A DNA stretch of 64,000 bases from Paludisphaera mucosa. Lineage in GTDB: Bacteria > Planctomycetota > Planctomycetia > Isosphaerales > Isosphaeraceae. The DNA is taken from assembly GCF_029589435.1 (NCBI RefSeq), contig NZ_JARRAG010000002.1, forward strand, positions 1,674,001 through 1,738,000. The letters are read 5' to 3'. The notes beneath the pieces are model-generated. The model was not told the DNA's origin. It made no database searches and saw only the letters and a list, made by a program, of their open reading frames with translations. Made by a program: the position numbers and the translations under genes. Of this stretch, positions 26,855 through 31,063 are shown piece by piece. The first letter of the stretch is position 1. Every line of letters begins with the position of its first letter.

Positions 26855-27826
26855 ATGAGCACAACGACGACGGCTCGGCCGTTCCACAAGCGAATCGCCT
26901 GGGCGACGACCCTCTTCATCGGCGGCATGCACGCCGCCGCGTTGTTCGCGCTCCTGCCGAGCCTTTTCTCGTGGTCGGGGCTGTTCCTCTGCCTGGTCTT
27001 GCACTGGCTCACCGGCGGCGTCGGGATCTGCCTGGTGTATCACCGGCTGCTCACGCACCGCAGCTTCAAGCTCTATCCCAAGTGGCTCGAATATCCGCTG
27101 ACCGTCGTCGGCATGATGGCCTCCGAGGGTGGGGCGGTCGGCTGGGTGGCCGACCATCGCCGCCACCACGCCTATTCCGATGAGGAGCTGGACACCCACT
27201 CGCCGCTCCGGGGCCTTTTCTGGGCCCACATGGGTTGGTTCATGTTCCCGGACGAGACGACCCGGCACGACGACGCCTACTTCAAGCGCTGGGCGCCCGA
27301 CCTCTTCCGCGACCCGGTCCATCGCTTCCTGGAGAGGAACTTCATCTTCGTCCCCTTGGCCCTCTTCGCCGCCCTCTACGTCGGCGGCCAGTATTACGGC
27401 GGCCTGGGGCTGAGCTGGCTGGTGTGGGGCGGCTTCGTGAGGACCCTGTTCGTCTGGCACACGACCTGGCTGGTGAACTCGGCGAGCCACGTCTGGGGCT
27501 ACCGGACCCACGCGACCCGCGACCAGTCGACGAACCTCTGGTGGTGCGCCGCCTTGACTTACGGCGAAGGCTGGCACAACAACCACCACGCCTTCCAGAC
27601 GTCCGCCCGCCACGGCCTCGACTGGTGGGAGGTCGACCCGACCTACTGGACCATCAGGGCGATGCAGCTCGTCGGCCTGGCCAGCGACGTCAAGCTCCCC
27701 AAGGTCCGCAAGAACGAGGACGGCACCCTCATCGAGACCGACGTCCGCCCGGCCGTGCCGCCGACGACGGCCGCGACCCCGGCCTCCGCCGTGGTCCTGC
27801 CCGTCGAGCAAGAATCCACCGTCTGA
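26855..27826 (+). CDS. Acyl-CoA (stearoyl-type) delta-9 fatty acid desaturase
   Basis: A 323-residue di-iron membrane desaturase. All three histidine boxes are intact: HRLLTHRSFKL (about residues 68-73), VADHRRHHAYSDEELDTHSP and GEGWHNNHHAFQTSARHG. Four membrane helices flank them as in OLE1/DesC-type enzymes, which place a cis double bond at carbon 9 of a saturated acyl chain using oxygen. Hydrophobic start: KRIAWATTLFIGGMHAAALF. The C-terminal 40 residues are a low-complexity T/A/P tail. Together with the upstream radical SAM protein it suggests lipid remodelling, though separate transcription is possible. A terminator-like hairpin follows. Confidence 0.93.
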   Translation: MSTTTTARPFHKRIAWATTLFIGGMHAAALFALLPSLFSWSGLFLCLVLHWLTGGVGICLVYHRLLTHRSFKLYPKWLEYPLTVVGMMASEGGAVGWVADHRRHHAYSDEELDTHSPLRGLFWAHMGWFMFPDETTRHDDAYFKRWAPDLFRDPVHRFLERNFIFVPLALFAALYVGGQYYGGLGLSWLVWGGFVRTLFVWHTTWLVNSASHVWGYRTHATRDQSTNLWWCAALTYGEGWHNNHHAFQTSARHGLDWWEVDPTYWTIRAMQLVGLASDVKLPKVRKNEDGTLIETDVRPAVPPTTAATPASAVVLPVEQESTV

Positions 27827-28011: not shown

Positions 28012-28339
28012 GCGGCCCTAGCTCAACGGCAGAGCAGGGGACTCATCAATTCCAAACGGTGGCGCCGGGGGGCGACCCTCGACCGCGAACCGGGTGAATT
28101 GCGGGAAACCTAAACCCTCGCGAGGGGGCACGGCGATCCGCAGCCAAGCCTGGCCGGGCATCGGTGGCCAGGAAGGTTCAGAGACTAGCGGGGTGAGTCC
28201 CAACAATAACCCCCGCCGCGAGCGCCCGGCCTCCCCCGCCCTCTCTCCCGGGCGGGGCGAGGATGAGATAGTCCAAGCCCCGTGGAAACGCGGGGGCCCT
28301 TGAATCCCTTGGTTGCAGGTTCGAATCCTGCGGGCCGCA
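28012..28339 (+). tRNA. tRNA with CAT anticodon, probably tRNA-Ile2, split by a group I intron
   Basis: Joining 28012-28046 and 28303-28339 gives a 72-nt cloverleaf. The acceptor GCGGCCC pairs with GGGCCGC, with discriminator A; the D arm is GCTC/GAGC; the anticodon stem is GGGGA/TCCCT around loop CTCATAA; the T arm is GCAGG-TTCGAAT-CCTGC. CCA is not encoded. The anticodon CAT can be elongator Met, initiator Met or the lysidine-modified Ile2. Full pairing at the acceptor top argues against initiator, and the anticodon arm closely resembles E. coli tRNA-Ile2 (CTCATAATCxCTTGGT). It cannot function unless the intron is removed. Confidence 0.9.
28047..28302 (+). ncRNA. Group I self-splicing intron in the tRNA anticodon loop
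   Basis: A 256-nt intron sits directly after anticodon T36. The 5' exon ends in T and the intron ends in G (28302), as group I splicing requires. The core is visible: GCGGGAAACCTAA (about 28101-28113) in the P3/P4 region, AGCCAAGCC at 28142-28150, CAGAGACTA (28179-28187) with GACTA pairing to TAGTC at 28269-28273 to make P7, and a P9 hairpin CCCCGTGGAAACGCGGGG. Near the start GGTGG can pair with exon/intron TCATC to make P1. The layout closely follows the Azoarcus tRNA-Ile intron (IC3 class). It has no reading frame for a homing endonuclease. Confidence 0.9.
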
Positions 28340-28998: not shown

Positions 28999-29011
28999 TG
29001 CCGAGACCTTG

Positions 29012-31063
29012 ATGCTCGACGACGATCCCATCCCATTCGCGGACGTGCCGGAGGAGCCGCCCGCGCGGCGAGTCGAAGAGCCGCGGCGCGGCCGGGCGTC
29101 GGGACCGGAGCCGGAACCGCCGAGGCCGCCGAAGCGGCGATGGACGCGATTCGTCCCGTTCGTGCTGATCGTCGCGGCCTCGCTGGTGCACGGCTGGGCG
29201 ATCTGGCGCGGGCTCGGGGGCCGCGAGGGGATCGACGGCGCGTGGGTGCCGTGGCGGGACGACCATCCGCTCTACTTCCACAGCGCCCTGGCCACTCGCG
29301 CCTTCCTGTCGCAATCGGGGACGACGGCCGGCTACGACCCCGCGTTCATGTCCGGGTATCCCAAGAGCGTCGTCTTCCCCGCGTCGTCGACGCTCCCCGA
29401 GCTGGCCCTTTGGGCGTTCGGGGGCGAGCGGCCCGAGCGGGCTTTCAAGCTCTACATCCTGCTGGCGGCGGCGGCCGCGCCCTGGCTGGTGGCCTGCGCG
29501 GGCTGGATCCAGGGGATGGGCCGCACGGCGGTCGCGGCGGCCGTGCTCCTCTTCGTGGGATACGTCTGGACCGACTGGCCGATCAACTACGTCGGCTTCG
29601 GCATGCTGCCCTACTTCGTCGCGGCGCCGACGTGCCTGGTCGCGGCCGGGATGTTCGGGAGGTTCGTGGACGTCGGCGGCTTCGGCCGCTGGCTGGCCGC
29701 CGCCCTGCTATGCTCGGCCGCCTTCCTGATGCACCTGACGGCCGGCATGCTCGTCGCGCCGGCGGGCGCGCTGGCGTACCTGGGGGTCTGGATCGCCCGC
29801 CGTCGCGGCGGCCACGGCCTGCCGATTTCGCGGCACCTGGGCGTGTGGACGGTCCCGATCGTCGTCCTGGCGCTCAACGCCTTCTGGTGGGCCCCGGCCC
29901 TGTGGCTGGGCTCGACGAAGGGCGAGAGCGGCTTCGCCTTCTTCCACCCCGAGGGCTCGCTGGCGCGGATCACGCAGCTCTTCACCAGCGAGGCGCCGGC
30001 GGAGCTGATCCTGCTCGGCCTGGGGCTGCCGGGCCTGATGGTCCTGGCGACGAAGGGGCTGGGACGCGGGCTGGCGCTGGCGGGGGTGGCGGCGGCGGGC
30101 TGGTTCTGGGCGTACACGGCGGCCGACGTCCGCGCGCTCGACTTCCTCCAGCCGGGGCGGCACACGTTCGCCCTCTATTCGGCCCTGGCGGTCGCCTCCG
30201 GGGCGGCGTTCTCCGCCGGCCTGGAGCGGCTGCGTCCCGGCGTCGGCGCGACGGGCGCCGAGGCCGTCCACCTCGACTGCTGGGCCATGCTCGCGGCGGT
30301 CCTGATCGGGATCCGGATCCTGGGGACGCCCGCCGCGGCCTCGATCCGGGCGCGCGTGCTGACGGAGCCGACGTTCCTCTCGTCCCAGCCGCCGCCGCGG
30401 TTCTTCTGGATCCTCAAGCGGTTCCAGGAGAACGTGAAGCCGGGCGAGCGGGTGCTGTACGAGGAGGGGGGCGAGGACGTCCCGGGCGCGCCCGACCCGT
30501 TCGGCGGCGGGCGGTTCACCGGGCTCCTGCCGTGGAAGACCGGGGCCGAATTGATCGGCGGGCCCTACCTGAAGGCGGCCCTCAAGGCCAACTTCACGCA
30601 GTTCGGCGGCGACGCCCTGTTCGGCCGAAAGGGCTGGGACCGGCCCTTCTTCGAGAAGTACGCCCGGCTCTACCGGCCGAGCTACATCCTCTGCTGGACG
30701 CCCCACGCGCGGCGGTTCTGCCGCGAGAACCCCGACCTGGCGACGGTGCTGGACGACGACGGGACCCTCTTGTTCGCGAGGATCGCCGGTTACGGCGGCG
30801 ACGCGATCCGGGGCTCAGCGAAGGTCGAGGCGACGCCGGGACGGCTGGTGGTCCGGGAGATGGTCCCCGATCTTGACGGTTGCGTCGTCTTGCGGTATCA
30901 CTCCGTCCCGAGCTTGCAGGCCCAGCCGGCCGCGCCGGTCGACGCGGAATACGCGGAGGAGGACCCGGTCCCGTTCATCCGGGTCCGGCCCGCCGCGGGG
31001 GCCTCGGAGGTGACGCTGGAGATGGCGCCGCCGATCCGGGGACCCTGGTCGTCGAGCCGGTGA
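29012..31063 (+). CDS. Large polytopic membrane protein (GT-C-like)
   Basis: A 683-residue protein with a proline/arginine-rich cytoplasmic N-terminus of about 40 residues, about eleven membrane helices, and a soluble C-terminal domain from about residue 460. The first loop after helix 1 has an acidic cluster WVPWRDDHPLYFHSALATRA, placed as the catalytic loop of GT-C glycosyltransferases, and then TTAGYDPAFMSGYPKSVVFP. It is like the PTPS-related/GT-C membrane families, but I do not recognise a defined family. It precedes a GT87-type gene, so a role in surface glycan or lipid-linked sugar transfer is likely. Confidence 0.65.
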   Translation: MLDDDPIPFADVPEEPPARRVEEPRRGRASGPEPEPPRPPKRRWTRFVPFVLIVAASLVHGWAIWRGLGGREGIDGAWVPWRDDHPLYFHSALATRAFLSQSGTTAGYDPAFMSGYPKSVVFPASSTLPELALWAFGGERPERAFKLYILLAAAAAPWLVACAGWIQGMGRTAVAAAVLLFVGYVWTDWPINYVGFGMLPYFVAAPTCLVAAGMFGRFVDVGGFGRWLAAALLCSAAFLMHLTAGMLVAPAGALAYLGVWIARRRGGHGLPISRHLGVWTVPIVVLALNAFWWAPALWLGSTKGESGFAFFHPEGSLARITQLFTSEAPAELILLGLGLPGLMVLATKGLGRGLALAGVAAAGWFWAYTAADVRALDFLQPGRHTFALYSALAVASGAAFSAGLERLRPGVGATGAEAVHLDCWAMLAAVLIGIRILGTPAAASIRARVLTEPTFLSSQPPPRFFWILKRFQENVKPGERVLYEEGGEDVPGAPDPFGGGRFTGLLPWKTGAELIGGPYLKAALKANFTQFGGDALFGRKGWDRPFFEKYARLYRPSYILCWTPHARRFCRENPDLATVLDDDGTLLFARIAGYGGDAIRGSAKVEATPGRLVVREMVPDLDGCVVLRYHSVPSLQAQPAAPVDAEYAEEDPVPFIRVRPAAGASEVTLEMAPPIRGPWSSSR

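Follow-up and report, generated by a model that had tools for sequence, protein, structure and literature searches.

In Paludisphaera mucosa, a group I intron of 256 nt splits the anticodon loop of a CAU tRNA gene at positions 28012-28339 of the window, the 64,000-nucleotide stretch of DNA analysed here. Our preferred interpretation, to which we give a probability of roughly 0.93, is that this endonuclease-free intron has been vertically inherited in the family Isosphaeraceae and would self-splice from a tRNA-Ile2 that TilS makes AUA-reading. The intron belongs to a known kind and occupies a known site, but has an unexpected build and phage counterparts; the tRNA that it interrupts is probably essential.

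The split gene and its splice junction

The gene consists of three parts.

28012-28046, + strand: 5' exon of the probable tRNA-Ile2 (tRNA positions 1-36, ending in the anticodon CAU), from ARAGORN on the joined exons
28047-28302, + strand: group I intron, 256 nt, without a recognisable endonuclease, from an RF00028 match of 50.0 bits, covariation, and the absence of a Pfam match
28303-28339, + strand: 3' exon of the probable tRNA-Ile2 (tRNA positions 37-73; CCA not encoded), from ARAGORN on the joined exons

Once joined, the exons give a complete 72-base tRNA(cat) in ARAGORN, with a single G-U pair in the cloverleaf, at 27-43. The original prediction had placed a group I intron within a CAT tRNA, in its anticodon loop, with the same coordinates, the 256-nt insert and the 72-nt cloverleaf; the ARAGORN result, the Rfam match and covariation among relatives bear it out on each point. 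The gene is easily overlooked: in its default mode ARAGORN calls no tRNA in the window, and its intron mode recovers a split tRNA with the exact span 28012-28339 and the 256-base intron, yet sets the junction two bases earlier and misnames the gene Gln(CUG). We prefer the junction U36|A37, because at the alternative one the exon does not end in U nor the intron in G, as a group I intron would require. Both nucleotides had been pointed out beforehand and are constant in 40/40 family genes, a constancy that is partly by construction since the cloverleaf scan required both.

A covariance search with permissive filters matched RF00028 (Intron_gpI) at 28043-28295 over the full model (1-253), with 50.0 bits and an E-value of 9.6e-11. 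This score is exactly the gathering cut-off, and a default Rfam scan across the full window gave no match. The match alone is thus borderline, and the question was therefore settled with the relatives, among which RF00028 scores reach 76.0 bits. The longest stop-free frame of three family introns, including that of the window, has no Pfam match; we therefore reject an endonuclease gene inside the intron, as had been anticipated from the sequence. A promoter scan returned 0 promoters and 2 terminator-like sites, none of them inside the split gene.

Structure and covariation in the family

The structure comprises the four tRNA stems and P1-P9, counted on an alignment of 40 family genes. Of its 3280 cells, 99.5% are paired. 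Double-sided changes occur at 21 of the 82 pairs; with partners slid the number is 3-7, and shuffling gives a mean of 7.5. Because the structure was derived from the 40 sequences themselves, it has an advantage over the slid versions. The double-sided changes lie in P1 beside the splice site, in P2, P3, P6a, P9.0 and P9, and in the acceptor and T stems, the covarying acceptor stem having its two strands in different exons. P4, P6, P7 and P8 draw no support from covariation because they are invariant, and P5 and P7.1 draw none because they vary on one side only. The elements, all on the + strand and placed on the 40-gene alignment, are the following; they include P4, P7 and P9, which the original prediction had already named.

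28044-28061: P1, exon C34-A35-U36 and intron nucleotide 1 (28044-28047) with the guide 28058-28061
28062-28086: P2 hairpin with a GCGA tetraloop; double-sided changes at 7/9 pairs, 99.2% of cells paired
28090-28229: P3, strands 28090-28094 and 28225-28229; double-sided change at 1/5 pairs, 4 invariant
28100-28142: P4, strands 28100-28104 and 28138-28142; paired in 40/40, invariant
28109-28111 with 28130-28133: P5, enclosed by P4; paired in 40/40, one one-sided change
28143-28177: P6, 28143-28145 with 28175-28177; invariant
28149-28154 with 28167-28172: P6a; double-sided changes at 4/6 pairs
28181-28274: P7, presumed guanosine-binding helix, strands 28181-28187 and 28269-28274; invariant in 40/40, also from the RF00028 alignment
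28188-28216: P7.1 hairpin, 28188-28193 with 28211-28216, GCGGGG...CCCCGC; paired in 40/40, only G-C to G-U changes
28230-28262: P8, 28230-28233 with 28259-28262, and a variable extension; base invariant
28275-28301: P9.0, 28275-28277 with 28299-28301; one pair is A-U in 30 and G-C in 10 of 40
28278-28284 with 28289-28295: P9 with a GAAA loop; double-sided changes at 3/7 pairs, 95% of cells paired
28302: intron-terminal G; last G in 40/40, as required by the scan

P1 uses the anticodon itself, C34-A35-U36 pairing with GUG. The wobble at the splice site (U28046-G28059) is kept as U-G in 40/40 genes, and the pair next to it is C-G in 35, U-A in 3 and U-G in 2. The minimum-free-energy fold of the intron alone is no better than shuffles (z -0.96), by a method that cannot represent the P3/P7 pseudoknot; this pseudoknot and the P4-P6 domain are supported by pairing in the 40 genes, with P3 and P6a covarying. 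A spurious fold is ruled out by the covariation.

These elements suggest the following course of events. On folding of the precursor, P1 would form between the anticodon CAU and the guide GUG, and a guanosine bound in P7 would attack after U36. The freed 5' exon would then attack behind the intron-terminal G (28302), and the ligated tRNA would subsequently be trimmed, receive its CCA and be modified by TilS, so as to carry isoleucine and read AUA.

Distribution and inheritance in Isosphaeraceae

A cloverleaf scan found the complete split tRNA-Ile2 gene in 40 of the 45 family genomes, and the six genomes of the window's genus all have the split gene. This rejects a single-genome oddity. The original prediction had singled out a planctomycete case without an endonuclease, and had proposed a look at relatives; the case is confirmed, but it is not a lone one. 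Group I matches to RF00028 of any score occur in 43/45 family genomes, and in 26/26 of those of good quality. Matches over the cut-off occur in 30/45, and in at least one of these genomes (G035) the match is a tRNA-Lys intron; some family matches fall in the tRNA-Lys gene. Of the remaining five genomes, G020 has the halves of the gene distributed over two contigs, and in G044 25 nt of the 5' exon stand at the start of a contig. No match to the split tRNA-Ile2 came from G014, G032 or G035; in G014, which is 96% complete, the gap cannot be put down to low completeness alone.

One and the same exon pair occurs in 30 of the 40 family genes, and the introns range from 252 to 416 nt. The gene upstream in the window encodes a fatty-acid desaturase (26855-27826, PF00487), and at 14 of the 17 family loci tested the desaturase gene is found within 1.5 kb upstream of the split gene. 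An open reading frame downstream (29009-31063, no Pfam match) is present in the 1.5-kb flank at 9 of these 17 loci. The conserved split gene and its shared neighbours speak for one old insertion, vertically inherited in Isosphaeraceae. A plasmid origin was rejected, there being no match in 72,556 plasmid records.

Vertical inheritance of a working intron has to be weighed against decay, i.e., a non-spliced or degenerate intron in a dispensable tRNA copy. The borderline Rfam score and the rarity of AUA would agree with such a pseudogene, but compensatory changes in the tRNA stems, P1, P2, P3, P6a, P9.0 and P9 do not, nor does the invariance of P4, P7 and P8 in 40/40 genes or the retention of the neighbouring genes at most loci tested. 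We thus regard decay as extremely improbable.

The split tRNA-Ile2 is accompanied by a second split gene. The tRNA-Lys(UUU) of the same genome (L191:1499-1871, at C2:315 kb) carries, after U34, a 300-nt intron of a different, short build (see below), and the other TTT tRNA called in the genome is an island copy. The tRNA-Lys gene is split in 6/6 genomes of the genus; in the 45 family genomes it is split in 36 (9 of them read as cloverleaves), uninterrupted in 4 and unassigned in 5. The uninterrupted genes belong to four of the five genomes of one genus (G022-G025), the fifth having no match, and they indicate that an intronless allele is detectable by such a search. These four genomes retain the Ile2 intron, and no loss of that intron was seen in the family. 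Most sequenced members of the family appear to need one ribozyme for their AUA-reading tRNA and another for tRNA-Lys(UUU). Such dependence would make the cost and the permanence of self-splicing introns in essential genes testable in culturable species.

Identity of the tRNA and decoding of AUA

The genome (8,211,357 bases in 9 contigs) encodes TilS (TIGR02432, 156.2 bits for a cut-off of 93.6). A strict pattern found two intact CAT tRNAs besides the split gene, one initiator-like and one elongator-Met-like by sequence. ARAGORN called 78 tRNA genes in the loci examined, covering 75 of the 79 tRNA-model matches of the genome; the other four are C2:352859-352941 (34.7 bits, over the tRNA-model cut-off), the weak matches at C2:2736092 and C2:3408240, and the 3' half of the split gene itself. 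No tRNA with a TAT anticodon is among the ARAGORN-called genes, and a tRNA-Gln(CUG) is separately present.

The split tRNA is distinct from the initiator and elongator tRNA-Met by exclusion and by sequence. Its continuation, AATC..TTGGT, is presumably typical of bacterial tRNA-Ile2. Exclusion and these sequence signatures together make tRNA-Ile2 the most likely identity, in agreement with the original proposal, which the two other well-formed CAT tRNAs and the TilS gene support. It is very unlikely that the gene specifies elongator tRNA-Met or, with the ARAGORN junction, tRNA-Gln. ARAGORN does label the joined CAT tRNA as Met and, in intron mode, the split gene as Gln(CUG), and the loop CUCAUAA is also found in elongator Met. 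Yet the genome has separate genes for an initiator-like and an elongator-Met-like tRNA and for tRNA-Gln(CUG), and with the Gln junction neither splice site would follow the group I rules. The presence of TilS, the lack of a tRNA-Ile(UAU) among the genes called, and the continuation mentioned above likewise argue against Met.

AUA accounts for 13 of 16,674 codons in 37 ORFs of the window, chosen by length and GC3, and on this count it is rare but used. As the genome encodes TilS and yielded no further convincing tRNA-Ile2, decoding of AUA probably depends on splicing, which is likely to be the sole route to an AUA-reading tRNA. The earlier suggestion that this might be the only tRNA-Ile2 of the cell therefore stands in so far as the search for further CAT tRNAs gave no second convincing one, and is weakened by a degenerate CAT copy (L038 5714-5783) in a tRNA island, which might still act as a second AUA reader. 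In the 41 of 45 family genomes whose matches were covered in full, none of the CAT matches, some of them unclassified, has an Ile2-like continuation.

The tRNA island just mentioned (L038, C1:837-844 kb) has 23 tRNA genes, many of them low-scoring. A tRNA with a CTA (amber) anticodon, labelled Pyl by ARAGORN, lies near tRNA-Ser(CGA) (L041:101-183), and an odd tRNA labelled Ile(AAT) has an encoded CCA after it (L052:98-172).

Two builds at the same site

The RF00028 alignment showed 33 extra nucleotides between P7 and the 3' strand of P3 in the window intron, forming P7.1. Such an insertion is found in 40/40 family tRNA-Ile2 introns (33-63 nt), in both tRNA-Asn(GUU) introns of other planctomycetes (33-34 nt), in 15 of 25 viral-contig tRNA introns (33-39 nt) and in both phage-record introns measured (37 nt). 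It is 0-1 nt long in the other 49 tRNA introns, all of the short build: 9/9 in tRNA-Lys, 13/13 in tRNA-Ile2 after position 33, 4/4 in fMet, 11/11 in Leu(UAA), 1/1 in Arg(CCU), the one in tRNA-Ile2 after position 36 of a planctomycete outside the family (G056), and 10 of the 25 in viral contigs. Eleven of these 49 occupy the same site as the window intron. The insertion lengths thus reveal two builds at the same tRNA-Ile2 site.

In subgroup IC3, the build of the Azoarcus intron, the 3' strand of P3 follows P7 directly and there is no P7.1; 33 nt are inserted there in the window intron. We take the intron of the Azoarcus sp. BH72 pre-tRNA-Ile(CAU) to belong to this subgroup and to be inserted in the anticodon loop after CAU. 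The window intron resembles it in its tRNA-Ile2 host, its site, its short length and the absence of an endonuclease, but differs by its P7.1 insertion and its 256 nt. The difference extends to a P3 strand, AGCGCCC in the window intron and ACGGCA in the Azoarcus build, which is represented here by short-build introns of viral contigs. The original prediction had assigned the insertion to the same site class as Azoarcus, which is right for the site and not for the build.

The shared site, U36|A37, raises the alternative of an Azoarcus-type (IC3) intron transferred to planctomycetes from proteobacteria or cyanobacteria. Short-build introns at this very site, in 10 of 23 viral-contig split CAU tRNAs and in G056, would fit such a transfer, which is nevertheless improbable given that the insertion separates all 40 family introns from all 49 of the short build. 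The trees bear on both sides of the question. Without the P7.1 columns, FastTree separates the builds with a support of 0.998, and IQ-TREE does so (97.3/97) on a 122-column core after the 9 long-branched tRNA-Lys introns and L118 were left out. In contrast, IQ-TREE does not recover the split with all 77 sequences (188 columns), and on the 122-column core with tRNA-Lys included it puts the short-build Lys introns on the P7.1 side. Throughout, the trees were built without 23 of the 40 Ile2 introns from the family and without 8 viral introns that are near-duplicates; G246 (loop CT|CATGA, L170) is outside the intron set. Within the P7.1 group, the trees gave no firm branching order for the Isosphaeraceae, tRNA-Asn and phage introns: the grouping of Isosphaeraceae with the tRNA-Asn introns received 0/59 in IQ-TREE and 0.58 in FastTree.

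The window intron shares one trait with subgroup IA2, the P7.1 at 28188-28216, paired in 40/40 family genes with one-sided changes only; its 33-nt insertion has neither P7.2 nor the G-U-A linker. We thus name it P7.1-bearing and IA-like, and file it as neither IA2 nor IC3. The phage intron of Pf-WMP3, in which G-U-A links P7.1 to P7.2, is one that has been assigned to IA2 (PMC3428280), and in the intron of phage Twort the guanosine pocket is surrounded by P7.1/P7.2 (PMC1995217). The Pf-WMP3 intron is like ours in having a P7.1 insertion between P7 and P3, but lies in a DNA polymerase gene, and the insertion of the window intron is a single hairpin without GUA.

Counterparts in phages and viral contigs

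A 3'-junction pattern matched 28 contigs that their collection assigns to viruses, several of them near-duplicates. Twenty-five hold a split tRNA, with CAU in 23 and UGU in 2 (L102, L114), and three hold none (L097, L116, L117). The introns of L102 and L114 bear P7.1 and lie after position 36 of a UGU (Thr) tRNA, which gives the P7.1 lineage more than one tRNA host. Eight P7.1-bearing introns of viral tRNA-Ile2 genes, 588-773 nt long, have a stop-free stretch of 138-228 codons (L096, L107, L109, L112, L113, L119, L120, L122). HNH_3 was matched in 3/3 representative ORFs tested, and these ORFs probably encode homing endonucleases aimed at tRNA genes.

Split tRNA-Ile2 genes are also found in Klebsiella phage Muenster (MT708547.1; L202:2483-2790), in the partial record of Klebsiella phage phiKp_21 (L203:2483-2790) and in record OU509535.1 (L205:2494-2794), with introns of 228-231 nt scoring 89.9-104.1 bits against RF00028. 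In Muenster and phiKp_21 the gene is unannotated, between tRNA-Ser and tRNA-Asn; OU509535.1 has no annotation at all. The Muenster intron shares the site of the window intron, CTCAT|AA, and a P7-P3 insertion (37 nt), but differs in its phage host, its score (104.1 bits) and its second hairpin after P7.1 with a GUA, as seen by eye. A 2014 review placed every phage intron observed by then in a protein-coding gene (PMC3984707). A search of 50,697 phage records with the window gene matched only 32 nt of its 3' exon, in two Stenotrophomonas phage records; one of these phages, RAS14, has an uninterrupted 73-base tRNA annotated at the matching site.

A broader history may be sketched tentatively, with the odds somewhat against it. 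A P7.1 lineage specialised on anticodon loops may move between phage tRNAs, where it bears HNH genes, and bacterial ones, the Isosphaeraceae copy being an old endonuclease-free descendant fixed in the sole AUA-reading tRNA; IC3 introns would have reached the same phosphodiester independently. Two unlike builds share a single phosphodiester bond, among bacteria as well as viral contigs, which offers a direct case in which to ask about the origin of bacterial tRNA introns.

Known bacterial cases and other split tRNAs

The tRNAscan-SE 2.0 paper gives 36 bacterial genomes with tRNA-fMet or tRNA-Ile2 interrupted by group I introns, with Gloeobacter and Synechocystis (fMet) and Acidovorax and Burkholderia (Ile2) as examples (PMC8450103). 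These, too, are group I introns that hide the tRNA from tRNAscan-SE (PMC8450103), but in other phyla than that of the window; words beginning with Planctomyc are absent from the main text. The Azoarcus pre-tRNA-Ile intron is named in PMC3984707, and a 2014 table has cyanobacteria, alpha- and beta-proteobacteria only (PMC4033280). The portions consulted of PMC11835236 and PMC4705646 have nothing on planctomycetes, and the word intron is absent from the main text of the Paludisphaera borealis chromosome paper (PMC5352709). We found no report of a planctomycete tRNA group I intron in the open-licence literature searched, and an earlier notice may exist.

Outside the family, 41 of the 352 genomes of the class that were searched have a group I match. 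The assignment of these introns to genes excludes L154, L165, L168, L174, L183, L185, L187 and L188, and L094, L146 and L148 are fragments at the ends of contigs. In other planctomycete families (L124-L188), introns were observed in tRNA-Leu(UAA) after position 34, in tRNA-Ile2 and in tRNA-fMet after 33, in tRNA-Asn(GUU) after 35 and in tRNA-Arg(CCU) after 36, as well as in 23S/16S rRNA.
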